Source: Streptococcus infantarius subsp. infantarius ATCC BAA-102
GTDB taxonomy: Bacteria; Bacillota; Bacilli; Lactobacillales; Streptococcaceae
DNA: 64,000 nucleotides
Assembly: GCF_000154985.1 (NCBI RefSeq)
Contig: NZ_DS572691.1
Location: forward strand, 1-64,000
Direction of reading: 5' to 3'
Shown: piece by piece, positions 16,533 to 31,684 of the stretch
How the letters are laid out: every line of letters begins with the position of its first letter
Numbering within the stretch: the stretch's first letter is position 1
Made by a program: the position numbers and the translations under genes
Notes under the pieces: generated by a model
Databases searched by the model: none
Told to the model about the DNA's origin: nothing
Seen by the model: only the letters and a program-made list of their open reading frames with translations

Positions 16533-16537
16533 AAATG

Positions 16538-20219: not shown

Positions 20220-20306
20220 AACAGATTTCCTTCTAAAGAACCTAGTTTCAATAGATATGCTAAATAGACCATTGTTAATGTAGGTTCTAACCATTTGATA
20301 GACTTA

Positions 20307-20373
20307 TTATGCCATAAGAAAGAGGTTTAGAACTATCAAAGTCCTAAACGGTCATTTTGAGTTCTTGAATGGT
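20307..20373 (-). promoter_or_regulatory. Regulator-box promoter of the exporter operon
   Basis: Read leftward: ACCATTCAAGAACT (20373-20360), then ACCGTTTAGGACTT (20352-20339), start-to-start 21 bp, then CATAAT (20312-20307) as -10 after 26 bp. Divergent from and only 9 bp away from the boxes of the first bacteriocin module. Confidence 0.8.
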
Positions 20374-20382
20374 AACTCAATT

Positions 20383-20449
20383 ACCGTTTAGGAACTCAAA
20401 ATGAACTTTTACGACTTGGGCGTTCATTTTTCTAAAAAAGGGTTATACT
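20383..20449 (+). promoter_or_regulatory. Regulator-box promoter of bacteriocin module 1
   Basis: Boxes at 20383-20396 (ACCGTTTAGGAACT) and 20404-20417 are 21 bp apart; -10 TATACT at 20444-20449 begins 27 bp after the second box. No TTGACA-like -35 is present, as expected for an activator-dependent promoter. Confidence 0.85.
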
Positions 20450-20493
20450 ATACTTGTTTCCGGAAATATAAAAATTAATAAGGAGGTATTCAG

Positions 20494-20751
20494 ATGAATA
20501 CAAAAGCATTTGAACAATTTGGTGTCATGAACGAAGTAGAACTTTCAGCGGTTGAAGGTGGGTATAGTGCAATAGATTGCCGAAATGCAATGCTGACCGG
20601 TATTGCAAGTGGAATAATTGCTGGAGGCACGGGAGCAGGACTTGCAACATTGGGTGTTGGAGGATTAGCAGGTGCCTTTGTTGGTGCGCACATTGGAGCT
20701 ATTGGTGGTGGTTTGACATGTGTTGGCGGAATGATTGGAAATAAGTTTTGA
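20494..20751 (+). CDS. Double-glycine bacteriocin, thermophilin 13 ThmA-like
   Basis: 85 residues. Leader [23 protein letters not shown], with cleavage expected after Gly-Gly, leaves a mature peptide of 62 residues with two Cys and repeated GxxxG motifs. Its end, GAFVGAHIGAIGGG and then GGMIGNKF, closely resembles what I recall of ThmA from S. thermophilus. AAGGAGG precedes the start. The next gene encodes a second GG peptide, so this is probably a two-peptide class IIb bacteriocin. Confidence 0.85.
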   Translation: MNTKAFEQFGVMNEVELSAVEGGYSAIDCRNAMLTGIASGIIAGGTGAGLATLGVGGLAGAFVGAHIGAIGGGLTCVGGMIGNKF

Positions 20752-20768
20752 TAAAATGGGGGAAAACG

Positions 20769-20963
20769 ATGAATTTAAAGAAGATAGACATTGAAGAAAT
20801 TAGTGCTTCAGATTTAGAGGTTATTTCAGGAGGGAAAGGAAATCTAGGCTCTGCTATCGGAGGTTGCATAGGCGGAGTAATCCTTGCGGCTGCTACTGGT
20901 CCATTGACAGGTGGTGCGGCAGCTTTGGTTTGTGTTGGTTCAGGGCTTTCTGCGTACTTATAA
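20769..20963 (+). CDS. Double-glycine bacteriocin, second peptide of module 1
   Basis: 64 residues from ATG 20769. Leader MNLKKIDIEEISASDLEVISGG is different in sequence from the MNTK leaders but ends in the same Gly-Gly site. The mature part (KGNLGSAIGGCIGG onward) is Gly/Ala-rich and hydrophobic with two Cys. It starts 17 bp after the previous gene and its stop overlaps the next start (TAATG). It is the likely partner peptide. Confidence 0.8.
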   Translation: MNLKKIDIEEISASDLEVISGGKGNLGSAIGGCIGGVILAAATGPLTGGAAALVCVGSGLSAYL

Positions 20964-21133
20964 TGTTAATAAAATATACATTTCTTGTCCTAATATTTAT
21001 TGCCACCCAGTTATTAATGTTTGTGATAAGACTAAAAGATGATGAAAAAAAAACAGTTAGACGCTTCTCTATCATTTTACTAATTTCTTATATTCTAGTT
21101 GATATTTTCATTAGCATTCTTAGGATGTTGTAA
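20963..21133 (+). CDS. Small membrane protein, candidate immunity protein of module 1
   Basis: 56 residues starting in the TAATG overlap with the preceding bacteriocin gene, so translation is coupled. Two transmembrane helices (LIKYTFLVLIFIATQLLMFV and RFSIILLISYILVDIFISI) flank a short charged loop (RLKDDEKKT). No family recognised. Size, position and coupling are those of Blp-type immunity proteins; function inferred. Confidence 0.65.
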   Translation: MLIKYTFLVLIFIATQLLMFVIRLKDDEKKTVRRFSIILLISYILVDIFISILRML

Positions 21134-21158
21134 CAACTAGGAATGCTAATGAATTCAT

Positions 21159-21386
21159 ATGAATACATTAGCATTTGAACAATTTGATGTAATGAACGAA
21201 GTAGACCTTTCAGCTGTAGAAGGTGGGTATAGTGCAGGTGCATGTTTAACTGACATTGGATTAGGAATGGTTGGTGGTGGTGCTGCAGGTGTAGCTGGTG
21301 GTGTTGCAGGAATTGCTCTCGGAGTTGCTCTTGGACAAATTGGTGGTAATGTAAGATGTATTACAAGTTATGTTGGAGGAAAGTAG
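21159..21386 (+). CDS. Double-glycine bacteriocin, first peptide of module 2
   Basis: 75 residues. Leader [23 protein letters not shown]; mature part YSAGACLTDIGLGMVGGG onward is very Gly/Ala/Val-rich with two Cys and several GxxxG motifs for helix pairing. No promoter box lies ahead, so it is probably transcribed from module 1. The Shine-Dalgarno match is poor. It lies directly before another small GG peptide. Confidence 0.8.
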   Translation: MNTLAFEQFDVMNEVDLSAVEGGYSAGACLTDIGLGMVGGGAAGVAGGVAGIALGVALGQIGGNVRCITSYVGGK

Positions 21387-21387
21387 A

Positions 21388-21576
21388 ATGGAAGATTATA
21401 AAGAGTTGACCATAAATGATCTTGCTTGTATTAACAGAGGAGGAGTGAACTGGGGTGTAGCTGCTGGATATTGTGTTGCGGGTGCTTTAATAGGCGCTGC
21501 AGGAGGAGCAATTTCAGCTGGAGTGGGCTGTCTAGTCTCTGGTTTACAGGAAGTATCAGATGGGCTTTTTAAGTAA
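21388..21576 (+). CDS. Double-glycine bacteriocin, thermophilin 13 ThmB-like
   Basis: 62 residues from ATG 21388, one base after the preceding stop. Leader MEDYKELTINDLACINRGG has Arg before Gly-Gly, an unusual but tolerated position. Mature peptide VNWGVAAGYCVAGALIGAAG and the later GVGCLVSG resemble what I recall of ThmB. Pairing with the upstream peptide as a class IIb bacteriocin is likely. Its 3' end overlaps the following gene. Confidence 0.78.
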   Translation: MEDYKELTINDLACINRGGVNWGVAAGYCVAGALIGAAGGAISAGVGCLVSGLQEVSDGLFK

Positions 21577-21739
21577 TGTCATAAGAATATTATTTCCTTA
21601 CATTTTGTTGACACCAATTATGTATATTATTTCCTATTGGAAGAGCAACAAATTTTTTAAACAATATGTAAGGATTGCTATCATATTTTTTCTATTACAA
21701 ATCTTATCGGAATTGGCATATGCTATATTTAATAAGTAA
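21560..21739 (+). CDS. Small membrane protein, candidate immunity protein of module 2
   Basis: 59 residues, overlapping the bacteriocin gene by 17 bp in another frame. Two hydrophobic helices (FPYILLTPIMYIISYW and IAIIFFLLQILSELAYAIF) are separated by a basic loop. Unrecognised family; immunity role inferred from its place just after the peptide pair and before the terminator. Confidence 0.55.
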   Translation: MGFLSNVIRILFPYILLTPIMYIISYWKSNKFFKQYVRIAIIFFLLQILSELAYAIFNK

Positions 21740-21749
21740 AACTAATTTC

Positions 21750-21781
21750 GGCTGATAGTTCTCCTAGCGATCAGCCTTTTT
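21750..21781 (+). terminator. Terminator closing modules 1-2
   Basis: GGCTGAT (21750-21756) pairs with ATCAGCC (21770-21776) followed by T5. It is a near copy of the terminator at 29346-29377. Confidence 0.8.
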
Positions 21782-21802
21782 CAAAAAGAAAAGGAGTTAT
21801 TG

Positions 21803-21859
21803 ATGACCTCAAAACATCTTAAATCATTGGTATTATTATCATCTGCTCAAACCGTGTGA
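21803..21859 (+). pseudogene. Truncated 5' copy of the sortase-anchored thioredoxin gene
   Basis: From the terminator at 21750 through AAGGAG and the first 16 codons, this matches the stretch before and at the start of the gene at 29399 (shared VLLSSA). Similarity ends at 21848 and the frame stops at 21859. A recombination or deletion scar. Confidence 0.75.
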
Positions 21860-21935
21860 GCATTAAAGGGCTTCAGGAAAAGTGATAAAATTGAACTGGT
21901 AGTCTTTTGGGGCTAGCTATTTTTATACAAACTGC

Positions 21936-22002
21936 ATCTCTTGCGACTGTTTATGGTCATTTTACGCCTTGGGCGTTCATTTTTCTAAAAAAGGGTTATA
22001 CT
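21936..22002 (+). promoter_or_regulatory. Degenerate regulator-box promoter of module 3
   Basis: The downstream box (ending ACGCCTT, 21964-21970) and TATACT (21997-22002) keep the 27-bp spacing. The upstream box at 21936-21949 matches only about 9 of 14 positions, because it lies near a deletion junction. Expression may be weaker than in other modules. Confidence 0.6.
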
Positions 22003-22044
22003 ATACTTGTTTCCGGAAATATAAATTAACAAGGAGGTATTCAA

Positions 22045-22203
22045 ATGAATACAAAAGGTTTTGAACAATTTGAAATACTAGACAACACTTCTCTTGCCAA
22101 TATTAATGGTGGAGACAACATCACAAAGGGTGCGTATAAATTAGGAAAAGCAACCCGTCAAGCAGCAAAAGCAATTGGAAAAGCAGTTGGAAAATTATTT
22201 TAA
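22045..22203 (+). CDS. Short cationic double-glycine peptide, first of module 3
   Basis: 52 residues. Leader MNTKGFEQFEILDNTSLANINGG; mature 29-residue peptide starts DNITKGAYKLGKATRQ and ends AIGKAVGKLF. It is strongly basic, lacks Cys, and would form an amphipathic helix with Lys every 3-4 residues. This differs from the neutral Gly/Ala-rich peptides elsewhere in the locus. AAGGAGG precedes the start. I do not recognise it; likely half of a two-peptide bacteriocin with the next gene. Confidence 0.75.
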   Translation: MNTKGFEQFEILDNTSLANINGGDNITKGAYKLGKATRQAAKAIGKAVGKLF

Positions 22204-22230
22204 AAAATATGATAGTATAGGAGAAAAGCG

Positions 22231-22386
22231 ATGAAGAAAGAAAAAACTTTTAAAGAACTAACAAATGAAGAACTAGAACAAACTGTTGGAGGAGATGACC
22301 TTTATAAATTAGTCAATCAAGGATTTGGTGCAATCTGCTCGTTTATTGATGGATTCAATGGAAAAAAATACAGAGGTAAATGCTAG
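22231..22386 (+). CDS. Short double-glycine peptide, second of module 3
   Basis: 51 residues. Leader MKKEKTFKELTNEELEQTVGG; mature peptide of 30 residues begins DDLYKLVNQGFGAICSF and ends KKYRGKC, with two Cys that could form a disulfide. AGGAGAAAAGCG lies upstream of the ATG. Not recognised. It follows the cationic peptide by 27 bp and precedes a CPBP protein, so a bacteriocin pair with protease-family immunity is the simplest reading. Confidence 0.72.
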   Translation: MKKEKTFKELTNEELEQTVGGDDLYKLVNQGFGAICSFIDGFNGKKYRGKC

Positions 22387-22425
22387 TAAGTGAACTAGTA
22401 TTGAAGAATGGCTTAAATTTAAATT

Positions 22426-23100
22426 ATGCTAAGTAGAATTTATCAGAACTTAATAGTATTATTGAAGTATGTTAGAATTATTTTGATTGTTTTTATATTA
22501 CACTTCTTAATTCAAATTCCAGCAGCATCATCATTACCTAACGCTATTGTTAATTCTGCAATAGGTAACACTATTAGAATTTTGTTATTATTATCAGTTA
22601 TTCCGATTACAATGCTATGCTATAAATCAATTAATATTTTTTCAGAAAAACAAAGGATAGTTGGGGCTATCAAAAATATAGAATGTTCAAAAAGTGATAT
22701 TATATCTATCTTTATTCTGGGACTAATAGATTTAGCATTAGTTTTAGTCTATATTTTCATTAATGGAAGTCCTAAAAGTACGTTATGGCAAAGCGAACCT
22801 TTTATATTGTTTTTAACGTTGCTTACGACGGTTTGTACTCAACCAATTCTTGAAGAACTATTGTATAGGGGCATACTTTTAGGAAGTTTAGAAAATTGTT
22901 CTAAAATTTTAGCTTTAGTAGTGAGTAGTTTTGTTTTTAGCTATATTCATGTTTACGATTTTCGGCAAGTTATTAATTTTCATTTAATTGGTGGATTAAT
23001 TTATGGACTTGCTTTTCTTAAAACAAAGAAATTATATCCGTCAATTATTTTACACTCAATACATAACCTAATTATTTTGGTGTTAGTTTGTAAAGTTTGA
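22426..23100 (+). CDS. CPBP-family intramembrane protease homologue (bacteriocin self-immunity)
   Basis: 224 residues with six or more membrane helices. The Abi/CPBP motifs are present: EELLYRGILLG (Glu-Glu and Arg), FSYIHVYDF (His) and HSIHNL (His). Homologues next to bacteriocins, such as PlnI or SkkI types, give self-immunity. It is the last gene of module 3, 39 bp after the second peptide, with no clear Shine-Dalgarno sequence. Catalytic residues appear intact. Confidence 0.85.
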   Translation: MLSRIYQNLIVLLKYVRIILIVFILHFLIQIPAASSLPNAIVNSAIGNTIRILLLLSVIPITMLCYKSINIFSEKQRIVGAIKNIECSKSDIISIFILGLIDLALVLVYIFINGSPKSTLWQSEPFILFLTLLTTVCTQPILEELLYRGILLGSLENCSKILALVVSSFVFSYIHVYDFRQVINFHLIGGLIYGLAFLKTKKLYPSIILHSIHNLIILVLVCKV

Positions 23101-23220
23101 TAGGTTGTGAAAGAAAAGATAATTGATTGTATAACAACTTAGTATTTCAAGAGTCTGGGACAAAAAAGGCTTCGATTCTTGAAAGCTTTATTGCTAAGTC
23201 ATTTAAAAGGCTAAATTAAT

Positions 23221-23272
23221 AAAAAGCGAACAAAACAGTGAATGTCAGGGAAGCTCTGTTTGTTTGCTTTTT
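23221..23272. terminator. Bidirectional terminator after module 3
   Basis: AAAAAGCGAACAAAACAG (23221-23238) pairs imperfectly with CTGTTTGTTTGCTTTTT (23256-23272), with A and T runs on both sides. The flanking 23101-23325 holds no gene that I can support. Confidence 0.7.
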
Positions 23273-23325
23273 ATAGCTGATATTGAATTTTTATCTTAGC
23301 TTTTTACGTTTTAATCAAAAATTTT

Positions 23326-23391
23326 ACCATTTACGACCTAAAAACGATAATTACGACTTGGACATTCATTTTTCTAAAAAAGTATTATACT
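23326..23391 (+). promoter_or_regulatory. Regulator-box promoter of module 4
   Basis: ACCATTTACGACCT (23326-23339) and a second box ending ACGACTT (23353-23359), here 20 bp apart, then TATACT (23386-23391) 27 bp downstream. Confidence 0.8.
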
Positions 23392-23440
23392 AAAACTGTA
23401 AAGGTTGCAACCCTAAAAAATAATTTATGAAAGAACTATT

Positions 23441-23825
23441 ATGACTAATCACATTCGAGTATTGACAGCAGTGGTACTATCTCAGTTAATTATTGAGTGG
23501 CCAGGTTATCTTATTGGGCTGTCTATTCCTAAAATTATTGGAATTGTGTTGCTGAGTACAGCTGTTGAAGCTATTCTTCATATCTGTTGTGTCATGAAAT
23601 ACCATAGTGATATTTCTCTGGCAACCAGCTTAACTAACTTTAAACAATTTATTTGGAAAACTATTTATTACCCTATTATTGTTGTAGCGGTTATCGTAGT
23701 TGGTGTTTTTCAAAAAAAACAATATCCTTACTATTTTCTTTGAGTGGAATGCCCTAGTTGTTTTTTATACCGTAGGATTTATCATGGCTTCTAATAATGT
23801 TCCTATGAAGAAACGGCATACATAA
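23441..23825 (+). pseudogene. Membrane protein of module 4, frameshifted
   Basis: The first frame gives about 90 residues with three hydrophobic stretches (LSQLIIEWPGYLIGLS, IIGIVLLSTAVEAILHICCV, YYPIIVVAVIVVGVF) and then stops. Removing one A from the eight-A run near 23712-23719 continues into KNNILTIFFEWNALVVFYTV and a stop at 23825, about 127 residues. Family not recognised; an immunity-type membrane protein is plausible. Either a homopolymer error or real decay. Confidence 0.55.
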
Positions 23826-23836
23826 ACGTTTACTTA

Positions 23837-24025
23837 GGATATGTTGAAGGTGGAGGAAAGGGATATTGTAAGCCTGTTTATTACGCAGCAAACGGGTACT
23901 CATGTCGATATAGCAACGGTGAATGGGGCTATGTTGTTACTAAAGGTGTCTTTCAAGCAACAACAGATGTAATCGCAAACGGTTGGGTATCGTCTCTTGC
24001 TGGGGGATATTTTGGAAAACCATAG
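23837..24025 (+). pseudogene. Bovicin 255-like bacteriocin core without its leader
   Basis: In frame up to TAG 24023 the sequence reads GYVEGGGKGYCKPVYYAANG, SCRYSNGEWGYVVTKG and finally VSSLAGGYFGKP. After the Gly-Gly this matches what I remember of bovicin 255 from S. gallolyticus. The N-terminal leader (MNTK..., about 17 residues) and its start codon are missing; upstream DNA is the tail of the membrane-protein gene. The peptide could therefore not be targeted to the exporter. It looks like a deletion that fused two modules. The immunity gene behind it is intact. Confidence 0.78.
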
Positions 24026-24036
24026 AGGAGTTTTTT

Positions 24037-24339
24037 ATGTCTCAAATAACTAAAGAATACATTATGGATCAAGTTTATAATCTTATTTTAAATGTCGAAA
24101 CTAAGGAAAATGAGCGCGAAGCTCTTATCAATTTTAAAAATGAGATTGAAGCTGGGAAAGAATTTGAAAGAAATTTAATGAAGCTAGCAGAAAGTTTACG
24201 GGAAATTAGCGTAAAAAACATTTCTGAGAAAACAACAATGAGCATAGGTGTGAGAGAATTTTATAAAAATATTTCATCATATGGTCAATTGAAGAAAAAC
24301 TTCGGTCGTGGATTAGCGGTAAGCGGCTTTATGTTTTAA
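24037..24339 (+). CDS. Bacteriocin immunity protein (soluble, helical), partner of the bovicin-like gene
   Basis: 100 residues from ATG 24037 with AGAGGAG upstream, 11 bp after the bovicin-like core. Soluble, charged and all-helical in appearance (ITKEYIMDQVYNLILNVE, then a Glu/Lys-rich middle), as in the EntA-immunity fold of class IIa/IId immunity proteins. Intact although its bacteriocin is disabled, so it may now protect against a related producer. Confidence 0.7.
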   Translation: MSQITKEYIMDQVYNLILNVETKENEREALINFKNEIEAGKEFERNLMKLAESLREISVKNISEKTTMSIGVREFYKNISSYGQLKKNFGRGLAVSGFMF

Positions 24340-24345
24340 AATATC

Positions 24346-24373
24346 AAGCTGATAGATGCCTATCAGCTTTTGT
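24346..24373 (+). terminator. Terminator of module 4 (recurring AAGCTGATAG/CTATCAGCTT type)
   Basis: AAGCTGATAG pairs with CTATCAGCTT, then TTTG. The same hairpin recurs at 25532, 26220 and 27664 directly before the next promoter. Confidence 0.8.
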
Positions 24374-24387
24374 ATTAATCAAATGTT

Positions 24388-24454
24388 ACCGTTTAGGAAC
24401 TCAAATTGCCCTTTTACGACTTGGGCGTTCATTTTTCTAAAAAAGGGTTATACT
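24388..24454 (+). promoter_or_regulatory. Regulator-box promoter of module 5
   Basis: ACCGTTTAGGAACT (24388-24401), second box 24409-24422 ending ACGACTT, 21 bp apart; TATACT 24449-24454 after 27 bp. Confidence 0.85.
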
Positions 24455-24496
24455 ATACTTGTTTCCGGAAATATAAATTAACAAAGAGGTATTCAA

Positions 24497-24730
24497 ATGA
24501 ATACAAAAGCATTTGAACAATTTGATGTAATGACAGACGTAGAACTTGCTAAAGTTGAAGGTGGAAACAAATGTGTTAATGCAATTTTTGGTGGCGCATT
24601 AACAGGTGCAGGATCAGGATTTGTAGGTGGTATGGCAACGCTTGGTGTTACTTCAATTCCAGGAGCATTTGTTGGAGCCCATTTTGGAGCAATAGCTGGT
24701 GGCTTATATTGTGTAGGTGCTAGTCTTTGA
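24497..24730 (+). CDS. Double-glycine bacteriocin, ThmA/BlpM-like, module 5
   Basis: 77 residues. Leader [23 protein letters not shown]; mature 54-residue peptide NKCVNAIFGGALTGAGSG onward, with GAFVGAHFGAIAGG near its end as in thermophilin 13 A and BlpM-type peptides. Two Cys and several GxxxG motifs. AAAGAGG upstream. Followed 19 bp later by a second GG peptide, hence probably class IIb. Confidence 0.85.
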   Translation: MNTKAFEQFDVMTDVELAKVEGGNKCVNAIFGGALTGAGSGFVGGMATLGVTSIPGAFVGAHFGAIAGGLYCVGASL

Positions 24731-24749
24731 TATAAAGAGGTATTTGAGG

Positions 24750-24938
24750 ATGAATGATAAATTTCATGAAATGACAAACTCAGATTTAGAGTTAGTTTCT
24801 GGTGGAGGAAAAGTTGGAGCAGCAGTTGGTGGCTGTCTCGGAGGTATGCTTTTAGCATGGGCAGGCGGTCCAGTTACCGCGACAGGATATGCTGTTGTAT
24901 GTGGTACTGCAGGAGCAGCTGCAGCATATTTTAATTGA
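24750..24938 (+). CDS. Double-glycine bacteriocin, second peptide of module 5
   Basis: 62 residues from ATG 24750, with TTGAGG just upstream. Leader MNDKFHEMTNSDLELVSGG; mature part GKVGAAVGGCLGGMLLAWAG and later AVVCGTAGAAAAYFN. It resembles the second peptide of module 1 (GNLGSAIGGCIGG), which suggests that modules 1 and 5 descend from a common ancestor. Likely partner of the preceding peptide. Confidence 0.8.
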   Translation: MNDKFHEMTNSDLELVSGGGKVGAAVGGCLGGMLLAWAGGPVTATGYAVVCGTAGAAAAYFN

Positions 24939-24942
24939 TATA

Positions 24943-25092
24943 ATGATGGGGAGTGAATTAATTAGGCTTGTAGTAGCTCAAGTCATTATATATGTTCTAT
25001 TCTATTTGTTTGACAAAAAACATAGAGAGATGTACCCTAGATTATTTATAATAACACTACTATTTACAATAATTGTATATTTTTCGTCATAA
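24943..25092 (+). CDS. Small membrane protein, candidate immunity protein of module 5
   Basis: 49 residues, starting 4 bp after the bacteriocin stop. Two hydrophobic helices (LIRLVVAQVIIYVLFYLF and RLFIITLLFTIIVYF) around a DKKHRE loop. Same size and topology as the candidates in modules 1 and 2. Function inferred from position. Confidence 0.55.
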   Translation: MMGSELIRLVVAQVIIYVLFYLFDKKHREMYPRLFIITLLFTIIVYFSS

Positions 25093-25107
25093 ATATATAG
25101 TTTAGCT

Positions 25108-25212
25108 ATTATATAATCTATTCTTGAAAAACATAGTATTATTGTTGCTAATTTAGTATATTTCGGTGTTACTACTGCAGCTGGTGCTTACTTAGGTTAT
25201 AAATCAAATTAA
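25108..25212 (+). pseudogene. Remnant of a small hydrophobic peptide gene
   Basis: An open stretch without start codon reads IIVANLVYFGVTTAAGAYLG and ends YKSN. It looks like the end of a bacteriocin or immunity gene cut off by recombination; the duplicated segment starting at 25207 begins exactly at its end. Confidence 0.4.
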
Positions 25213-25217
25213 TTTCT

Positions 25218-25433
25218 ATGTACTATTCTATTTTTGTTATTTTATTCTGCATTATCTTAGCTATAATTTTTATTGACGGTTTCTTTATTAAGAAGAATAA
25301 TAAAGCCTCATCTTATATCATTTTTTTGACTTGTTATGTTTTAAGTCAAAAGGAAGCTAACACTAGTTTTCTGACGTTAGTCTGTTTGCTTATTTTACTA
25401 TTGATATATTATGAAAATAGAAATAAAAAATAA
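25218..25433 (+). CDS. Small two-helix membrane protein, copy A (candidate immunity protein)
   Basis: 71 residues: helix YSIFVILFCIILAIIFIDGF, a basic KKNNKASS loop, a middle segment and a second helix (FLTLVCLLILLLIYY) ending ENRNKK. The family is not recognised. The copy at 27351 differs only slightly. In copy B it follows a two-peptide bacteriocin module, so immunity is plausible; here it follows a truncated gene. Confidence 0.6.
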   Translation: MYYSIFVILFCIILAIIFIDGFFIKKNNKASSYIIFLTCYVLSQKEANTSFLTLVCLLILLLIYYENRNKK

Positions 25434-25531
25434 TAACTATTATTGATAATCAGATTCATATTTTTATGGCAATAATATTGCCTGAAAGAATAGTTTATAA
25501 TGTATTACTATTGTGATAGTCACGCATTTTT

Positions 25532-25560
25532 AAGCTAATAGATTGCCTATCAGCTTTTGT
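25532..25560 (+). terminator. Terminator after the copy A membrane gene
   Basis: AAGCTAATAG pairs with CTATCAGCTT with one mismatch, then TTTGTTTT. Member of the recurring module terminator. Confidence 0.75.
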
Positions 25561-25574
25561 TTTAATCAAATTTT

Positions 25575-25641
25575 ACCGTTGACGACCTAAAAACAACAAA
25601 TTACGATTTGGGCGTGCATTAACCTCACAATCTGTTAGAAT
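25575..25641 (+). promoter_or_regulatory. Regulator-box promoter of the class IIa bacteriocin
   Basis: ACCGTTGACGACCT (25575-25588) and a box ending ACGATTT (25596-25609), 21 bp apart; -10 TAGAAT (25636-25641) after 27 bp. The spacer differs from that of other modules but the geometry is kept. Confidence 0.8.
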
Positions 25642-25687
25642 AAAATTTGTCAGTTGCAACGACAAAATATTATTGGGAGGTATTCAA

Positions 25688-25906
25688 ATGAATACAAAAA
25701 CTTTTGAACAATTTGATGTAATGACAGATGAAGCACTTTCTACTGTGGAAGGTGGGAAAACAATTTATTATGGTAATGGATTATACTGTAATGCAAATAA
25801 ATGTTGGGTGAATTGGTCACAAACAGCTACAACGATTGCAAATAATTCAGTAATAAATGGCCTAACAGGCGGAAATGCAGGCTGGCATTCTGGAGGAATA
25901 GCTTAA
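25688..25906 (+). CDS. Class IIa (pediocin-like) bacteriocin, ubericin A-like
   Basis: 72 residues from ATG 25688 (GGGAGG upstream). Leader [23 protein letters not shown]; mature 49 residues. It contains [16 protein letters not shown], the anti-listerial YGNGV-type box with the conserved disulfide pair, then a helical half ending [14 protein letters not shown] recall ubericin A of S. uberis as nearly identical. Peptides of this class form pores through the mannose PTS of Listeria and enterococci. Its stop overlaps the immunity start (TAATG). Confidence 0.92.
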
Positions 25907-26202
25907 TGGTAGATTTAAAGTGGTTCTCAGGTGGAAAAGAAAGAAAAAATGAAGCGGTAGTTATTATTGACGAATTATTAGTATCTTTGAGTGAGGATTC
26001 AAAATATATACCGCTTAAAAAATTTTTTCTTTTTTATCGTAAGGAATTAGAGTCAAGTGGGACTTCTACGCCATTGGTATTAAGTAGGATGAATGTAGAG
26101 TTATCTAACATTCTGGTAGAAAATAAACTTCAACTATCTGATGCACAATCAAAGCAATTAAAGAGGTTAAGAAGTTTATCAAATATTAGATATGGCTATT
26201 AG
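25906..26202 (+). CDS. Class IIa bacteriocin immunity protein
   Basis: 98 residues, translationally coupled to the pediocin-like gene by TAATG. A soluble, charged, helix-rich protein (KNEAVVIIDELLVSLSEDSK, then LSDAQSKQLKRLRSL), the size and character of the EntA_Immun four-helix family, which locks the bacteriocin on the mannose-PTS receptor inside the producer. Family assignment rests on pattern and context. Confidence 0.85.
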   Translation: MVDLKWFSGGKERKNEAVVIIDELLVSLSEDSKYIPLKKFFLFYRKELESSGTSTPLVLSRMNVELSNILVENKLQLSDAQSKQLKRLRSLSNIRYGY

Positions 26203-26219
26203 ATAAAATATTTATCGTC

Positions 26220-26246
26220 AAGCTGGTAGGTCCTATCAGCTTTTGT
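26220..26246 (+). terminator. Terminator after the class IIa module
   Basis: AAGCTGGTAG pairs with CTATCAGCTT (two G-T pairs), then TTTGT. Followed 15 bp later by the next promoter. Confidence 0.75.
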
Positions 26247-26260
26247 ATTAATCAAATGTT

Positions 26261-26327
26261 ACCGTTTAGGAACTCAAAATGACCGTTTACGACTTGGGCG
26301 TTCATTTTTTTAAAAAAAGGTTATACT
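26261..26327 (+). promoter_or_regulatory. Regulator-box promoter of module 7 (closest to consensus)
   Basis: ACCGTTTAGGAACT (26261-26274) and ACCGTTTACGACTT (26282-26295), 21 bp apart; TATACT (26322-26327) 27 bp downstream. This is the clearest version of the regulon promoter. Confidence 0.88.
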
Positions 26328-26370
26328 ATACTTGTTTCCGAAAATATAAATTAACAAGGAGGCAGTCATT

Positions 26371-26604
26371 ATGAATACAAAAATTTTTGAACAATTTGAT
26401 GTAATGACAGACGCAGAACTTTCAGCCGTTGAAGGTGGCGGATGTAATTGGAAAGGTGCAGCTGCTACAGTAGCTGTAGGAGCTGTTGGTGGTGCAATAA
26501 AAGGAGCAGTAACAACATATTCATGGCAAGGGGCTGCTTTGAAGGCGGTAGGATATGGAATTAAAGCAGGAGTCGCTTACGGTGCAACCTGCCGTTGGAC
26601 ATAA
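26371..26604 (+). CDS. Double-glycine bacteriocin, module 7
   Basis: 77 residues. Leader [23 protein letters not shown]; mature part GCNWKGAAATVAVGAVGG, a mildly basic Gly/Ala-rich middle with an aromatic TYSWQG, and ending GVAYGATCRWT. Two Cys near the ends could form a long-range disulfide. AAGGAGGCAG precedes it. No obvious partner peptide follows before the next small membrane gene, so it may act singly. Confidence 0.8.
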   Translation: MNTKIFEQFDVMTDAELSAVEGGGCNWKGAAATVAVGAVGGAIKGAVTTYSWQGAALKAVGYGIKAGVAYGATCRWT

Positions 26605-26608
26605 CAGT

Positions 26609-26779
26609 ATGAAAAGATGGATTTTGGAATTCTTACTTCTAGTCTTAGTTTATAGCATCATTGCTTTACTATGGAAACAAGATAAAACATGGCAATTTTA
26701 CGCATTAAGCATGTATGCAGCCATAAGTTTATCAGATGATATTTTTAAACTTTTGTTTCTAAAGAATAAGAAAAAATAA
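26609..26779 (+). CDS. Small membrane protein, candidate immunity protein of module 7
   Basis: 56 residues starting 4 bp after the bacteriocin stop. An N-terminal helix (WILEFLLLVLVYSIIALLW), a short loop with KQDKTW, and a weaker second helix ending KNKKK. Same architecture as the other candidate immunity proteins here; inferred. Confidence 0.55.
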   Translation: MKRWILEFLLLVLVYSIIALLWKQDKTWQFYALSMYAAISLSDDIFKLLFLKNKKK

Positions 26780-26793
26780 AGGAGGTAGTCATC

Positions 26794-26994
26794 ATGAATA
26801 CAAAAGCATTTGAACAATTTGATGTAATGACAGATGCAGAACTTTCAACTGTTGAAGGTGGGAAAAGTAAAGAAGGAAGAAATATGGGATGTATACTTGG
26901 CACTGCAGGTATGGCAGGAGCAGGCTTTTTAGTAGCAGGACCAGCAGGTGCTGCCGCACTTGGCGGTGCTACCGCACTAAGAGTTTGTAGATAA
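26794..26994 (+). CDS. Double-glycine bacteriocin, first peptide of module 8
   Basis: 66 residues. Leader [23 protein letters not shown]; mature [21 protein letters not shown] onward, charged at the front and Gly/Ala-rich behind, ending ALRVCR with a second Cys. AAAGGAGG upstream but no regulator box, so it is read from the module 7 promoter. A second GG peptide follows. Confidence 0.8.
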
Positions 26995-27019
26995 GTTTAC
27001 TTTACAAGGAGGATTCTGT

Positions 27020-27202
27020 ATGGAACAATTTCAAATAATTGAAGAAAACGAACTAGAAATGATTGTTGGTGGTAAAGTTAGTCCAACCTGTGCGGCTTTG
27101 GTAGCAGCATCTATATATGGAGGACTCGCAGTAGCAGGACCAGCTGGTGTAGGTTTAGCTATGGCGGTTGGTGGTGCGGCTGCTGGAAGTTTTTGTAGAT
27201 GA
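27020..27202 (+). CDS. Double-glycine bacteriocin, second peptide of module 8
   Basis: 60 residues with a good AAGGAGG. Short leader [18 protein letters not shown]; mature [20 protein letters not shown] onward, ending [10 protein letters not shown]. The closing Cys-Arg mirrors the partner's VCR end, which supports a pair. Its stop overlaps the next start (ATGA). Confidence 0.78.
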
Positions 27203-27345
27203 AAAATTGGAGAATTATTCTAAAAAATATACTGTTTTTGGCAATGGGAGTGAAGGCAGTATTATCGACAGACGGTATGTTAGTAAAAGGAATTCTCGTT
27301 TTTTTCACAATGTTTATATTGTATAGTATAAATAAAGCAAATTAA
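27199..27345 (+). CDS. Small membrane protein, candidate immunity protein of module 8
   Basis: 48 residues, overlapping the preceding bacteriocin by 4 bp. Two hydrophobic stretches ([16 protein letters not shown] and [14 protein letters not shown]) with basic ends. Coupled translation and size fit an immunity protein; no family recognised. Confidence 0.55.
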
Positions 27346-27350
27346 TTTCT

Positions 27351-27566
27351 ATGTACTATTCTATTTTTGTTATTTTATTCTGCATTATCTTAGCTATAAT
27401 TTTTATTGACGGTTTCTTTATTAAGAAGAATAATAAAGCCTCATCTTATATCATTTTTTTGACTTGTTATGTTTTAAGTCAAAAGGAAGCTAACACTAGT
27501 TTTCTGACGATAGTCTGTTTGCTTATTTTGCTATTGATATATTATGAAAATAGAGATAAAAAATAA
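27351..27566 (+). CDS. Small two-helix membrane protein, copy B (candidate immunity protein)
   Basis: 71 residues, differing from the copy at 25218 by about one or two residues (Ile for Leu after SFLT; Asp for Asn near the end). Last gene of module 8, 5 bp after the previous stop, before a module terminator. Retention of two near-identical copies suggests recent duplication or selection. Confidence 0.6.
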   Translation: MYYSIFVILFCIILAIIFIDGFFIKKNNKASSYIIFLTCYVLSQKEANTSFLTIVCLLILLLIYYENRDKK

Positions 27567-27663
27567 TAACTATTATTGATAATCAGATTCATATTTTTAC
27601 GGCAATAATATTGCCTGAAAGAATAATTTATAATGTATTACTATTGTGATAGTCACACATTTT

Positions 27664-27692
27664 CAAGCTGATAGATTGCCTATCAGCTTTTG
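27664..27692 (+). terminator. Terminator closing module 8
   Basis: AAGCTGATAG pairs perfectly with CTATCAGCTT, followed by TTTGTTTT. Confidence 0.8.
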
Positions 27693-27707
27693 TTTTAATC
27701 AAATTTT

Positions 27708-27774
27708 ACCGTTTATGACCTAAAAATGACAAATTATGACTTGGACGTTTATTTCCAAGAGAATTTGTTAAACT
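27708..27774 (+). promoter_or_regulatory. Regulator-box promoter of module 9
   Basis: ACCGTTTATGACCT (27708-27721) and a box ending ATGACTT (27729-27742), 21 bp apart; TAAACT (27769-27774) as -10 after 27 bp. Confidence 0.78.
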
Positions 27775-27819
27775 GAAATGGTCAATCGCGGTGACAAAAA
27801 ATTATTGGGAGGTATTCAA

Positions 27820-28050
27820 ATGAATACAAAAATTTTTGAACAATTTGATGTAATGACAGACGCAGAACTTGCTAAAGTTGAAGGTGGAGGCATGGAATGG
27901 ATTGGAGATGTATTGGGTGCTATAGGTAATGCTGCGCATCCTGTTAACCCTCGTCAAGTGGTAGACCAATTAAATGGAAAGTATCCACGTCGTGGTCCTG
28001 TTCGTTCTTGCCCTCCTGGAGGAACTGGAGGAACACCTAATGCTTGTTGA
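27820..28050 (+). CDS. Unusual double-glycine peptide with Pro/Gly/Arg-rich tail, module 9
   Basis: 76 residues from ATG 27820 with GGGAGG upstream. Leader [23 protein letters not shown] is standard, so the exporter should process it. The mature part starts GMEWIGDVLGAIGNAAHPVN, then turns hydrophilic and basic (KYPRRGPVRSCPP) and ends GGTGGTPNAC. Two Cys lie within about 14 residues of the end. Unlike the other peptides it lacks a long Gly/Ala helix. I do not recognise it; it could be a new class II bacteriocin or a peptide with another target. Confidence 0.8.
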   Translation: MNTKIFEQFDVMTDAELAKVEGGGMEWIGDVLGAIGNAAHPVNPRQVVDQLNGKYPRRGPVRSCPPGGTGGTPNAC

Positions 28051-28138
28051 TAAGTTGTCTGTAGAAATTTCTAAATAATGTTATTTTAAAGATAATTTAG
28101 AAGTTTTTTTAGCAAAAAAGAAATACGGTATGTAAATT

Positions 28139-28450
28139 ATGAAAGCATTATATAATGGTCGTCTGTCTGATGTATGGGAAATAAGTAAGACGAATGTTCA
28201 ACCAGTATGGGTTCAGCAAGCTTTTAAACAAAATTATCTGAAATGGAACGATAATAAATTAATAATTTCTATGAGCGGAATAAATCCGTCTATGAAATTT
28301 AATTTGAAAATTAGCTTATTGAGTTATCCTGGTTACGCCTCTTATCCTGTGGGGTATATCGGAGATTTTTTAGATATTACTAACCATCGTGTTGTTTCAA
28401 AAAAACAATTTCATAAACATTATCAAATTATTGAAGAAGACCCTCTATAA
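28139..28450 (+). CDS. Soluble protein of unknown function, candidate immunity for module 9
   Basis: 103 residues, no signal peptide or membrane helix. Rich in Trp, Tyr and Asn (VWEISKTNVQPVWVQQAF, then KISLLSYPGYASYPVGYIG) with probable beta structure. Only 88 bp after the Pro/Gly-rich peptide, but with a weak ribosome site. Not like the helical immunity proteins elsewhere in the locus. Immunity is a guess from position. Confidence 0.5.
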   Translation: MKALYNGRLSDVWEISKTNVQPVWVQQAFKQNYLKWNDNKLIISMSGINPSMKFNLKISLLSYPGYASYPVGYIGDFLDITNHRVVSKKQFHKHYQIIEEDPL

Positions 28451-28552
28451 TTCTCATTTATGTCTAAAACTACAGTTTAAAGCTGCTTTAAATGTTCGAT
28501 AAAACTGGCGGCATACTTTTTGCCTATCAGCTTTTGTTTTAATCAAAATGTT

Positions 28553-28620
28553 ACCGTTTAGGAACTCAAAATGCCCTTTTACGACTTAGGCGTTCATTTT
28601 TCTAAAAAAAGGGTTATACT
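28553..28620 (+). promoter_or_regulatory. Regulator-box promoter of module 10
   Basis: ACCGTTTAGGAACT (28553-28566) and a box 28574-28587 ending ACGACTT, 21 bp apart; TATACT (28615-28620) after 27 bp. A half terminator (CTATCAGCTTTTG, about 28523) precedes it. Confidence 0.83.
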
Positions 28621-28663
28621 ATACTTGTTTCCGAAAATATAAATTAACAAGGAGGTAGTCATC

Positions 28664-28777
28664 ATGAATACAAAAGCATTTGAACAATTTGATGTAATGG
28701 ATGAAGTAGAACTTTCAGCCGTTGAAGGTGGAGGTTGGAAATGTGTTGCAGGAGTAGGAGGAGCATTTACTTGCTAG
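28664..28777 (+). CDS. Very short double-glycine peptide, 14-residue mature part
   Basis: 37 residues: full leader [23 protein letters not shown] and only GWKCVAGVGGAFTC after it. Promoter boxes, ribosome site (AAGGAGG) and leader are all consensus, so it is expressed and exportable. Two Cys could close a ring of 11 residues. Either a bacteriocin gene cut short by a deletion and ended by a chance stop, or a genuine mini-peptide with signalling or antimicrobial function. Confidence 0.65.
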   Translation: MNTKAFEQFDVMDEVELSAVEGGGWKCVAGVGGAFTC

Positions 28778-28813
28778 GTGGTGTGCCACTTTTCAAAGAA
28801 AAGAGGTATAACT

Positions 28814-29218
28814 ATGAAATATCATCTTTCTAGGTTAGATAAGTTATTACTTATCAGATGTTTAATGGGTCAGTTACCAATTATAGGTATACTTAGTATA
28901 TTCTTATCGCAGGAATTTTTTACCCTTCCTTTACTAACTAAAGTAGTTATAATACTAATTTTGACAACTAATATGGGAATCACTATTTACTTTACAAAGG
29001 AAATTAAACTAGAACAGGCAAAAGAAAATACTCATTTTCATGCTAAAGCTATGCAGATTTCTTTCATCGTGATTGCCTTGATTTTTGGTTTTATAGGCTT
29101 GTATAGGGGCGTAACTGCAGTAGAAACGTACCAACAAGTTATAGGGTATATAGGCGCTTTTATATGTATTGTTATAGCAGGTTTATTAGTTTGGGGGTTG
29201 AAATTTATTAAAGACTAA
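28814..29218 (+). CDS. Four-helix membrane protein of module 10, candidate immunity protein
   Basis: 134 residues from ATG 28814 (AGAGGT upstream). Four hydrophobic segments (MGQLPIIGILSIFL; LLTKVVIILILTTNMGITI; AMQISFIVIALIFGFIGLY; VIGYIGAFICIVIAGLLVW). Two pairs of helices around a charged KEIKLEQAKENTH loop. No family recognised. It is the last gene before a terminator, behind the mini-peptide. Confidence 0.6.
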   Translation: MKYHLSRLDKLLLIRCLMGQLPIIGILSIFLSQEFFTLPLLTKVVIILILTTNMGITIYFTKEIKLEQAKENTHFHAKAMQISFIVIALIFGFIGLYRGVTAVETYQQVIGYIGAFICIVIAGLLVWGLKFIKD

Positions 29219-29345
29219 GCCTAAGGATTTTAATAAATACTTTTCTACCCAACTTATAGTATTCCTAATTAAGCAGTATCGTTAGAAACTTTATTCTTGA
29301 TAGCAGGAATATATCTTTTGGTAACGACTAAGTAAAACTACTTTT

Positions 29346-29377
29346 GGCTGATAGCTAGGAACACTATCAGCCTTTTT
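29346..29377 (+). terminator. Terminator before the thioredoxin gene
   Basis: GGCTGATAG (29346-29354) pairs with CTATCAGCC (29364-29372), then T5. Homologous to the terminator at 21750. Confidence 0.8.
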
Positions 29378-29398
29378 CAAAAAGAAAGGGAGTTATTT

Positions 29399-30445
29399 AT
29401 GACCTTAAAACGTATGAAATCAGTTGTATTATTATCATCTGCTTTATTGAGTATAGTAGCAGTGACAGCTTTTGCTGACGATGAGGCGACTTCGTCTAGT
29501 TCAACTATTGAAGTTGTTAATCAATCTGAAACTAGTGTGACTAGCACAGAGACTTCATCATCAAGTATCGAATCAGCGGTTACGGCTATTGAAACAGAAC
29601 CGTCTTCGGAAGAAAATCAAGCAGTTGTTGCTAAAGCTGAGGATAATACTCTCCCAGCTGAAACGACTCCAGAAGTACAGACAACACCTACTACCCAAAC
29701 CTCAGAAGATACCACACCAGTTGCTGCTGATGAAGCAGAAGAAACTGGTACTGATGATGTAACGGTTAAACAATATGAAGAAAACGTTGCTGATTTTAAT
29801 GCTGTTGGTATTTCTGATGTGTATCACATGTTTACCAAAGACAATAAGGAGCATGTCCTCTATATTGGTCGTCCGACTTGTTATTACTGCCGTCAATTTT
29901 CATCAGAACTAAAAGAGTTCAATACGCTGCTAGATGAGGGTTTGGCATATTATAATACAGATAGTGCAGATTTTGATGATAATGCGCGTGCTTTCCTTTA
30001 TGAAACGGTGGGAATTCCAGGAACTCCTACTATTTTACGATTGCAAAATGGACAACTCTTATCAGGATGGGTTGGTGGTGGCGTTAGCGCTCAACAGCTC
30101 TATGATTATCTTTTCTTAGGAATTAACCCAGAAGAATCTCAAATAGATGATCATGAGGATAATAGCACAAAAGATGAGATTACAGAAGAAAGACCTGCCT
30201 CGCAAGATACAGTCACCTTTAATCAAGGACGACCAACGACCATGCAGACAAGCCCAGCATCAGCACAATCTGTTTCTCTATCAACTCCAGCTCCAACAAG
30301 CACCGTAGTATCCACAAAAACTACGCCAACAACTCTTCCAAATACTGGTGAAGAAAAAAGCAATCTTTACAGCTTAAAGATCCTTTTTATCCTACTTAGC
30401 TTAGCCACACTTGGCTTATCAAAAATGATGAAATCAGAAGACTAA
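29399..30445 (+). CDS. Sortase-anchored thioredoxin-like protein (bacteriocin accessory)
   Basis: 348 residues. A signal peptide (VVLLSSALLSIVAVTAFA) leads to a Ser/Thr/Glu-rich spacer (about 30-125). The thioredoxin fold (about 130-240) has the active site CYYC in YIGRPTCYYCRQF and the cis-Pro loop GIPGTPTILRL. Then come a second Pro/Thr-rich spacer and LPNTG with a membrane helix. PedC/BrcD-type thioredoxins help disulfide formation in class II bacteriocins, many of which here have two Cys; display on the wall suggests folding after export. AAGGGAG precedes ATG 29399. No regulator box seen. Confidence 0.85.
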   Translation: MTLKRMKSVVLLSSALLSIVAVTAFADDEATSSSSTIEVVNQSETSVTSTETSSSSIESAVTAIETEPSSEENQAVVAKAEDNTLPAETTPEVQTTPTTQTSEDTTPVAADEAEETGTDDVTVKQYEENVADFNAVGISDVYHMFTKDNKEHVLYIGRPTCYYCRQFSSELKEFNTLLDEGLAYYNTDSADFDDNARAFLYETVGIPGTPTILRLQNGQLLSGWVGGGVSAQQLYDYLFLGINPEESQIDDHEDNSTKDEITEERPASQDTVTFNQGRPTTMQTSPASAQSVSLSTPAPTSTVVSTKTTPTTLPNTGEEKSNLYSLKILFILLSLATLGLSKMMKSED

Positions 30446-30850
30446 AATCAACTAATCTCCTTATTTCGTAGCGGAAAAGATTATCAAAATCACAAAAGAA
30501 ACACGGTGACAAAGAGCTGACTACCATGCCATAACGCCCAAGACAGTTTATAAAGACGATATTTCAGTGAAGGGAGACAGCTTGCTCCTTGCGATGTTGA
30601 CAGAAAAAGAGAAAAACGAAAAGTTGTCCTGCGCGGTCAACTTTTTTGATCAGATGAAGTCATCTTGAAAGGTACGATCAAAAGTTTTGAGAAGTTAATG
30701 AGAAATTCAAACGATCTAAACAAAAGTTATCTCAGCACATTAAAAAATTTCTCAAAAAAACCAACTTTTTTCAGATTTTTTATTTGTCTTACGAATAAAT
30801 AGATAGAGAAGAAAATCTTCTACTGTTTTTTAGGATAAGGAGACAAGAAT
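30446..30850. other. Intergenic remnant region
   Basis: No supported gene. A short open stretch (about 30527-30668, including LLLAMLTEKEKNEK) resembles protein-coding DNA but lacks a start and a recognisable family. It is probably the debris of a gene lost during rearrangement. TAGATAGAG and AAGGAG precede the next gene. Confidence 0.5.
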
Positions 30851-31615
30851 ATGTCACAAAAATATATTCAACCACAATCATTGCCACGTATTGAATTTAC
30901 AGAGTAGATTTCAACAACTTTTGATGCCATTGATAGGGAAAACTTGACGTTGGGAACAGATGAAATCATCGTTAGTCAAGCGCATAAGCTAAGAAAATTA
31001 CTCCCACAACTGGCAGCAACGATTAAGGAAAAACGTAAATCTGATATTTCCCAACAACTGGCAGAATCACAAAAACTACGTAGGGCAGATCTTCAAGCGC
31101 TTAAAGATGCCATTAAGCCTGCCAAGGTTAGTCGTTTGGTGGAGAAAAAGGATGCTTATCTGCTGTTAAATGAATTATTGAAAAAGCATAATGATGCTCA
31201 AAGCTCAGGACTAGAAAAAACGAATGGGGTGATAAAATCTCTTCTGACGAAATTAGCTTCAGAAGAATATGCTCAAGCAGTAGAAACTCTGAGGGTAGAT
31301 GAATATGTCCAAAATCTCCAAGAAAGTCATCAAAAGACCTATCAACTCTATCTCAGTCGACAACAAGAAGAACTGGTCAAATCATCATCAAATAAAAAAG
31401 AAATCAGAGAAACCATGAACAAAAGTTATCGTCTTTTCTGTAGCCATTTGGAAAATCTTGTTGATTATGATGAAGATACGTCTTACAGTTCTTTATATAC
31501 ACTGGTTGAAAAAGTCAAAAAAGACTTTGCGGAAGTGTTACAACGTCGTAAAGCCCAAGCTAAGCGTAAAAAACCTATTCAATCAGAAGAGGAGGTGGTG
31601 CCACCATCTGACTAA
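30851..31615 (+). pseudogene. DUF6261-like protein interrupted by a stop codon
   Basis: ATG 30851 opens MSQKYIQPQSLPRIEFTE, then TAG at 30905-30907, after which the same frame continues for 235 residues (ISTTFDAIDRENLTLGTDE and a long helical Lys/Glu/Gln-rich body) to 31615. Restarting at ATG 30944 would give 223 residues. The intact protein would be 254 residues. I associate it with DUF6261, function unknown, with modest confidence. No membrane segments. Confidence 0.65.
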
Positions 31616-31657
31616 GTTAGGTGTTTGTCATGACAATTTTATTTTTAATTATTTTCA

Positions 31658-31684
31658 CCCTGTCAAAAATGGCAGGGATTTTTG
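31658..31684 (+). terminator. Terminator before the regulatory operon
   Basis: CCCTGTCA (31658-31665) and TGGCAGGG (31670-31677) form a stem with one G-T pair, followed by ATTTTTG. It insulates the regulator promoter. Confidence 0.7.

Follow-up and report, generated by a model that had tools for sequence, protein, structure and literature searches.

How the bacteriocin arsenal of a streptococcal locus can vary while its regulation and export stay in place is a question raised by a 64,000-nucleotide stretch of Streptococcus infantarius subsp. infantarius ATCC BAA-102 (contig NZ_DS572691.1, positions 1 to 64,000 of the forward strand; the whole stretch is referred to here as the window). The window contains a complete blp-type bacteriocin locus, with export genes, array, regulators and pheromone, at 16666-34029, and the array of bacteriocin and immunity genes occupies 20339-29218 on the plus strand. 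This array is the infantaricin locus: its gene order is identical to that of S. infantarius LP90, and 12 of the 13 mature peptides are identical as well, InfF differing by one residue. The array is probably a blp-type class II array of cassettes that are exchanged by homologous recombination between the linkers joining them. At the level of sequence, the comparisons establish repeated linkers, a change of cargo at the Gly-Gly codons, cassette-sized differences with ends mostly in linkers, a scrambled order of cassettes, and promoter DNA that goes with the genome more than with the cargo; the agent would be ordinary (RecA-type) homologous recombination, the linkers may be homogenised by gene conversion, and selection presumably keeps them alike for regulation and export.

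In the proposed mechanism, a cassette would consist of a mature bacteriocin core, often with a complete second peptide gene, together with immunity genes. The linker ahead of a full cassette, about 180-220 bp in length, would comprise the terminator of the previous unit, a BlpR-type box, a promoter, a ribosome site, and 23 codons up to Gly-Gly, and would supply termination of the previous unit, quorum control, a translation start, and an export address. Cassettes would be removed or duplicated when linkers of the same array recombine, and added or replaced when the partner is incoming linker-flanked DNA, and an arriving core would immediately come under quorum control and be addressed to the common transporter. 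Orphan immunity genes, a leaderless core, and a blpG fragment would be the leftovers of misplaced or partial events.

Repeated linkers in the array

The repeat search of the window returned families of up to nine copies, and a nucleotide profile trained on 44 linkers picks out 10 copies within 20381-28731 (E 2e-53 to 3e-14), nine of which belong to the training set of the profile, the tenth being the copy at 23322 (E 3e-14). Such repetition is far beyond chance. Seven copies are full linkers with regulator box, promoter, and leader to Gly-Gly, one is promoter-only, and two are leaders without a recognisable promoter; the linker-led genes start at 20494, 21159, 22045, 24497, 25688, 26371, 26794, 27820, and 28664. 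Full linkers with a type-A promoter lie at 20381-20562 (linker 1, found by both repeats and profile), 21936-22112, 24383-24564 (with a terminator hairpin at 24345-24369 ahead of it), 26220-26438 (terminator included), and 28520-28731 (half terminator included), and those with a type-B promoter, each with its terminator, lie at 25532-25756 and 27665-27887. The promoter-only copy occupies 23322-23423, and all of these elements are on the plus strand.

The initial annotation had described near-identical linkers, each containing a terminator, regulator boxes, promoter, ribosome site, and leader start, in an array beginning at 21740. The shared repeats are real, but there are two promoter types, leader identity among the window linkers ranges from 72 to 94%, and promoter identity extends from 63 to 91%: over the 150 bp upstream, the five type-A promoters are 77-91% identical and the two type-B promoters (25570 and 27703) 82%, and type A compared with type B reaches 63-74%. 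The described contents hold for the seven full copies, but not for the genes at 21159 and 26794, which have a ribosome site and leader, no recognisable box or promoter, and upstream DNA only 47-68% identical to that of the others, nor for the promoter-only copy. Terminator hairpins fold at 24345, 25532, 26220, and 27665 (z -4.8, -2.3, -4.1, and -4.8, one of them weak); no hairpin folds at 23282, and only the 3' arm is present at 28520. The true start of the array is at 20339 (box) or 20381 (first linker), so that its first two cassettes had been missed. The change of cargo at the Gly-Gly codons is borne out: in 12 of the 14 window repeat pairs found, those listed, similarity stops within 5 bp of Gly-Gly in 10 and at 15-20 bp in the other two.

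Putative regulator boxes are present at bacteriocin, transporter, and regulator promoters alike. A conserved 30-bp operator is found in all promoters of the corresponding S. gallolyticus regulon, and three of these promoters have been shown to bind BlpR and its antagonist BlpS (PMC8545106). By analogy, BlpR and BlpS would bind at the boxes of the window too.

Cassette differences between genomes

S. caballi DSM 19004, the one named relative found, has the same locus (L033), and its aligned blocks are 92.5-98.5% identical to the window (91-97% in a looser alignment). The alignment is broken by six discontinuities, four in the array and two in or near the regulator genes. All four array differences are cassette-sized, three of them consisting of presence or absence and one of replacement. 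The InfC genes are found at this place only in the window, with the switch within the leader; InfA is likewise confined to the window, with the switch within a 49-bp promoter repeat; InfD, again in the window only, has its left switch in the leader and its right end inside InfE at 25838; and in place of InfG, S. caballi has a bovicin-255-like cassette, the replacement starting at Gly-Gly (26861) and ending at the linker that follows. Diagnostic sites indicate that the S. caballi linker changes parent within the linker in all three cases of presence or absence. On the window side, seven of the eight ends lie in linkers, which cover 22% (strict) or 31% (loose) of the array. Much of the locus (16668-34000) is about 97% identical to S. 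caballi, compared with 90% for 42103-45391, about 8 kb beyond it; the locus itself therefore probably moved between lineages.

The three switches that were aligned base by base all fall in promoter or leader DNA, and Pfam detected no transposase or recombinase in the 20 array and flanking open reading frames (ORFs) scanned, a part of the ORFs of the locus. Shuffling driven by an insertion sequence (IS) or a site-specific recombinase would not be foreign to these bacteria, as IS elements are numerous in the group (PMC7417737) and pneumococcal blp loci carry transposase remnants that have been proposed as recombination sites (PMC4860687), but on this evidence it is very unlikely. An integron-like array, which would need an integrase and short specific sites for recombination, was also rejected, given the same scan of 20 ORFs and switches at varying points of promoter and leader.

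The wider comparison used collections with one genome per species. A linker match at E <= 0.001 was obtained in 65 of 284 genomes of the genus; stretches of at most 20 kb were taken from 15 of the 65 and, via a transporter search, from G181 and G041 (both among the 65) and G060, while six of the 15 (G218, G111, G184, G082, G177, and G274) were used only in a leader scan and a self-repeat test. The detailed set comprises the window and 11 genomes, with 44 hand-picked linker-led modules whose cargo was sorted by eye, on the basis of the peptides, into 19 families. A chance-alignment test of 150 bp of cargo had discriminated poorly (mean 0.43 for cargo against 0.34, sd 0.18, for shuffled sequence), and family assignment and permutations were therefore used instead. 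The module table excludes G060, the second copy of a tandem repeat in G046, the remains of a leader in G139, linker hits behind which no core could be read (e.g., G135 at 12280), a gene in G181 that resembles InfA2 only distantly (12202), and genes whose leaders are of another type.

Cargo families circulate widely in this set, 13 of the 19 being present in at least two genomes, and the order in which they occur is scrambled. Only 2 of 29 distinct neighbour pairs recur, both of them common to the window and S. caballi alone; a further linker hit stands between the partners in 9 of the 31 neighbour instances (three of these are more than 5 kb apart and span the transporter), so that some pairs are not directly adjacent. 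InfH, for instance, occurs in six genomes including the window with differing neighbours, and G001 has InfH followed by InfD, whereas InfD precedes InfH in the window, two orders that deletion alone could not derive from a single ancestral one. An identical module order in all strains, which the initial annotation had named as the outcome that would speak against exchange, is thus clearly not what is found between species. These observations also bear on the idea of a large ancestral array with independent losses in each species and no exchange. The InfC, InfA, and InfD differences from S. caballi are simple cases of presence or absence that such losses could produce, and loss through linker repeats is possible, although losses of that kind would still belong to the proposed linker mechanism. 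We nevertheless give loss without exchange very little credence, as it does not account for the scrambled order, for the replacement rather than loss of InfG, or for an array identity to S. caballi above that of the nearby region.

Cassette differences that fit exchange between linkers are also seen among other genomes. One between G279 and G001 has both ends in linkers with an overlap of 186 bp, an all-linker difference between G042 and G041 has an overlap of 61 bp, and G139 compared with G018 shows an insertion of 1173 bp from leader to leader. The G279/G001 comparison also includes one end about 385 bp ahead of the first G279 linker, outside linkers, and G001 compared with the window yields no clean internal event, since the alignment chain broke before the first linker. 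Within G046, on contig C81 (L037, 7401-9065), an InfG-type cassette is tandemly repeated together with the preceding immunity gene and linker, at a spacing of 1038 bp and 98.6% identity over 627 bp, the second copy being cut by the contig end. Both the same cargo behind different linkers and different cargo behind the same linker are found. The suggestion of cassette exchange through linkers is supported by this different cargo at the same place, by the cassette-sized differences, by the scrambled order, and by the orphan and truncated by-products, but it has to be qualified for the ends that fall outside linkers.

When the same cargo is compared between two genomes, linker identity falls below that of the mature peptide DNA in 47 of 47 pairs, and the identity of the leader alone falls below that of the core in 40 of 47. 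Read literally, this is the other outcome that the initial annotation had named as speaking against exchange; it fits cargo that leaves its linker, although faster change of non-coding DNA must contribute. A permutation test of the upstream 120 bp, which approaches the matter from the opposite side, is the stronger one: the same-genome effect is +0.070 (0 of 2000 permutations as large) and the same-cargo effect +0.014 (340 of 2000): promoter DNA follows genome more than cargo. On contig C81 of G046, the linkers ahead of three different cargos are 90-96% alike, whereas between G046 and the window, linkers ahead of the same cargo reach 70-75% identity for cores that reach 95%. The nearest leader comes from the same genome in 18 of 37 cases, from the same cargo in 7, and from neither in 12. 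Second-peptide leaders lie outside linkers; their identity within a genome is 66% (n=13), compared with 85% for first leaders (n=89), and of the 13 same-cargo pairs between genomes 12 are 79-100% alike.

These data bear most directly on functional constraint alone, under which the common regulator and transporter would keep promoters and leaders alike and cargo would change by whole-locus transfer or illegitimate recombination. Constraint of this kind is supported by the operator of the S. gallolyticus regulon and the binding of BlpR and BlpS at those promoters tested (PMC8545106), and by the reading of all leaders by one transporter; whole-locus transfer is likely too, the array backbone being about 97% identical to S. 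caballi and the 3.3-kb stretch at 42103-45391 only 90%. Constraint fails, however, to place a parental switch inside a linker, and it fails to explain linkers that are 90-96% alike within one genome and 70-75% alike between genomes with 95% cores. The coexistence of two promoter types in one array, moreover, indicates that identity is not required. As the whole explanation, constraint is therefore unlikely.

Several observations weigh against exchange through linkers. The enrichment of linker ends in the S. caballi comparison (binomial p 1.8e-4, strict; 1.7e-3, loose) assumes independent ends and was calculated after the data had been seen, and, as all linkers are alike, an alignment always extends to Gly-Gly, which biases ends toward linkers. 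The eighth end, on the right of the InfD difference, lies inside the bacteriocin gene InfE (25838). InfE is a mosaic whose linker, leader, and part of the core diverge from S. caballi (80% over the whole of the mature peptide DNA) and which is about 96% identical from 25838 onward, placing the switch inside a bacteriocin core. The InfC immunity region and the leader after it have a copy of 93.5% identity at another place of the S. caballi array (7669-7899), so that a single clean step in which everything was lost or gained does not describe the InfC difference. Across ten genome pairs, which are not independent, the 41 discontinuities divide into 9 with all four coordinates in linkers, 13 with some, and 19 with none, the last not sorted into cargo region or elsewhere; one G045/G279 end falls inside a second peptide. 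The effects on leader DNA are about equal for genome (+0.037; 4 of 2000) and cargo (+0.033; 13 of 2000), which is expected if crossovers fall inside the leader. The nearest upstream DNA comes from the same genome in 10 cases, the same cargo in 9, and neither in 18 of 37, and the window linkers are as alike among themselves (0.73) as with same-cargo linkers elsewhere (0.74). Finally, the second leader of InfC1 is 55% identical to that of its G045 relative with a core of 75%, and over 13 pairs second leaders trail their cores between genomes hardly less (-0.025) than first leaders do (-0.048), which makes the second-leader argument weak.

Two leader classes are present in each of two arrays, in G018 (L042: 12119 and 12837) and G139 (L043, reverse complement: 12607 and 13342), with FEQF near the transporter and TLEQF farther away, as if neighbouring linkers had been homogenised locally. 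Linker-like repeats ending at or near Gly-Gly also occur in lower-scoring loci, with 96% identity over 191 bp in G077 (L020) and weaker repeats in G082 (L047), G184 (L046), and G030 (L031), and the linker arrangement may therefore be wider in the genus. The self-repeat test of the 20-kb loci L044, L045, L048, L049, and L052 detected no such repeats, but this test misses some cases: it reports no pair for L035 and L038-L041, where the linker profile matches, although pairs were seen in a 3-kb G279 locus and in one G042 locus.

Cassettes, remnants and common genes

All cassettes lie on the plus strand. The first, InfC (20494-21133), contains InfC2 (20494-20751) and InfC1 (20769-20963), whose mature peptides are identical in LP90, and a small membrane-type ORF (20963-21133) as putative immunity gene. 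InfB follows at 21159-21739 behind a leader without recognisable promoter, with ORFs at 21159-21386 and 21388-21576 and a small ORF at 21560-21739. The InfA cassette, of gallocin D type (22045-23100), matches LP90 and consists of InfA2 (22045-22203), InfA1 (22231-22386), and a CAAX protease-like immunity gene (22426-23100). InfD (24497-25092), with cargo also present in G001, G279, and G018, contains InfD1 (24497-24730), InfD2 (24750-24938), and a small membrane-type ORF at about 24946-25092. InfE (25688-26202) pairs a class IIa bacteriocin (25688-25906; Pfam Bacteriocin_II) with an immunity gene (25906-26202; EntA_Immun). InfF (26371-26779), supported by LP90 and Pfam, has a bacteriocin gene at 26371-26604 and a small ORF at 26609-26779, and InfG (26794-27566), again with a leader lacking a recognisable promoter, includes InfG1 (26794-26994), InfG2 (27020-27202), and further ORFs at 27199-27345 and 27351-27566. 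InfH (27820-28450) matches LP90 and contains a bacteriocin gene at 27820-28050 and an ORF at 28139-28450. A short bacteriocin-like ORF at 28664-28777, with a 14-residue core also found in S. caballi, is probably truncated. Pfam scores exceed the cut-off for five of the seven class II precursors with a Gly-Gly leader that were tested, InfH and InfA2 remaining below it, and EntA_Immun matches immunity genes twice in the array.

The duplication, truncated gene, and leaderless core mentioned in the initial annotation are all present. The duplication joins 25199-25755 to 27332-27887 at 92%, rising to 98% over the first 300 bp (25199-25498 against 27332-27631); this block carries an orphan immunity-like ORF at 25218-25433, in the same 98% block as the ORF at 27351-27566. 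At 21733-21847 lies a scar in which the 5' end of the blpG-like gene, together with its terminator, is present as a truncated copy; it matches 29329-29443 in two pieces, one of 26 nt (92%) and one of 78 nt (90%). A decayed cassette at 23441-24339 includes an ORF (23441-23743), a leaderless bovicin-255-like class II core at about 23834-24027, and, still present on its 3' side in the window, an enterocin A-type immunity gene (24037-24339; EntA_Immun). The S. caballi counterpart of the core (L033, about 5278-5470) has lost its leader in the same way and has one extra stop, and relatives with an intact leader exist in S. caballi, G046, and G139. As both the blpG fragment and the leaderless core are also found in S. 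caballi, these two scars probably predate the four array differences.

The genes common to all cassettes identify the locus as blp-type. An export accessory protein of the HlyD family is encoded on the minus strand at 16666-18060 (HlyD_3, E 3e-13), followed on the same strand by a peptidase-containing ABC transporter of the type that cuts Gly-Gly leaders (18072-20294; Peptidase_C39 and ABC), which is matched at 97-98% in G012, G135, G045, and G279. A putative regulator box facing the transporter operon (20339-20376, minus strand) mirrors the box that follows it (inverted repeats I1-I3), and another stands ahead of the regulator operon (31695-31728, plus strand). This operon (31802-33859, plus strand) encodes a LytTR response regulator and a GHKL sensor kinase of BlpR/BlpH type, found by Pfam. 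A pheromone precursor of 49 residues with a Gly-Gly leader, of GSP/BlpC type, is assigned at 33880-34029 (minus strand), near the place of LP90 orf29, from its reading frame and leader only.

Between array and regulators, on the plus strand, a thioredoxin-fold protein at 29399-30445 (Thioredoxin_2, E 1.5e-7; LP90 orf26) is one that we take to be BlpG-like. Its LP90 counterpart has been named an LPXTG cell wall anchor protein (PMC7058333). The preceding gene, at 28814-29218, encodes a BlpL-like putative immunity protein (LP90 orf25) with a weak DUF3784 match below the cut-off. An Rfam scan of 16000-36000 identified only two tRNAs (34299-34527) and nothing in the linkers. Outside the array, a stretch at about 8773-9170 recurs as numerous partial copies at other places in G001 and G018 and is probably a mobile-element remnant or repeat.

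Relation to known bacteriocin systems

Neither the locus nor its shuffling is new. The infantaricin locus of S. infantarius LP90 (KJ475434) has the same genes in the same order as the window, and its description predicted promoters, terminators, and operons and demonstrated transcription of bacteriocin genes; the linkers are not treated there as recombination sites, and the stem 'recombin' is absent from the main text (PMC7058333). For the S. bovis/S. equinus complex, the shuffling of bacteriocin genes was published in 2020, with S. gallolyticus LL009, which has an InfA-type set instead of gallocin A, and S. infantarius CJ18 as strain-level cases (PMC7417737). The system can thus not be called undescribed, as the initial annotation had held, but a linker mechanism was not found described: in the open-access literature covered, which leaves subscription papers and older blp work outside its scope, promoter-to-Gly-Gly linkers do not appear as exchange sites, and the available text of the papers on S. 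lutetiensis and a rumen collection does not treat linker exchange (PMC8949432, PMC13289728). As locus and shuffling are already published, the gain lies in the mechanism and not in the discovery of a system. Linker exchange would provide a concrete mechanism for the variable bacteriocin arsenals of streptococci, with defined entry points and immediate regulation and export, and would account for the accumulation of orphan immunity genes, leaderless cores, and truncated genes. It predicts mixable cassettes, which would be useful for bacteriocin mining and for models of strain competition in gut and dairy, and the cassette arrays suggest how such bacteria re-mix their antibacterial peptides. More tentatively, the promoter-to-Gly-Gly linker could be the general exchange joint of streptococcal class II loci, a possibility for which the case is at present somewhat less than even; regulation and export would then stay constant, linkers would be homogenised within each genome, and cores, accompanied by their partner and immunity genes, would pass from species to species as plug-in cassettes.

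Related systems share parts of this picture. In the gallocin A and gallocin D loci of S. gallolyticus and S. infantarius, structural and immunity genes are exchanged in an otherwise conserved locus; the positions of the joins are not described, and neither 'promoter' nor 'recombin' occurs in the main text (PMC7417737). The pneumococcal blp region likewise combines a common pheromone, regulator, and transporter with variable bacteriocin and immunity genes; its loci have recombination blocks in common, and recombination has been proposed for differing blpN and blpK leaders and a blpM variant, while inter-cassette repeats are not described as exchange sites in the available text of these papers (PMC4860687, PMC4517551, PMC6422914). 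In S. thermophilus, the promoters of several blp operons match (PMC11286413). The sil locus of the S. anginosus group is a regulated bacteriocin region with ORF sets at several positions, which has been read as recombination or transfer, and no linker analysis was found in the available text (PMC5222867). The type VI effector-immunity modules of Vibrio cholerae offer a parallel outside the streptococci, as weapon and immunity modules are likewise replaced there and orphan immunity genes are left behind; the breakpoints, however, are scattered (PMC5361080), in contrast to the infantaricin array, where seven of the eight ends in the comparison with S. caballi lie in linkers.

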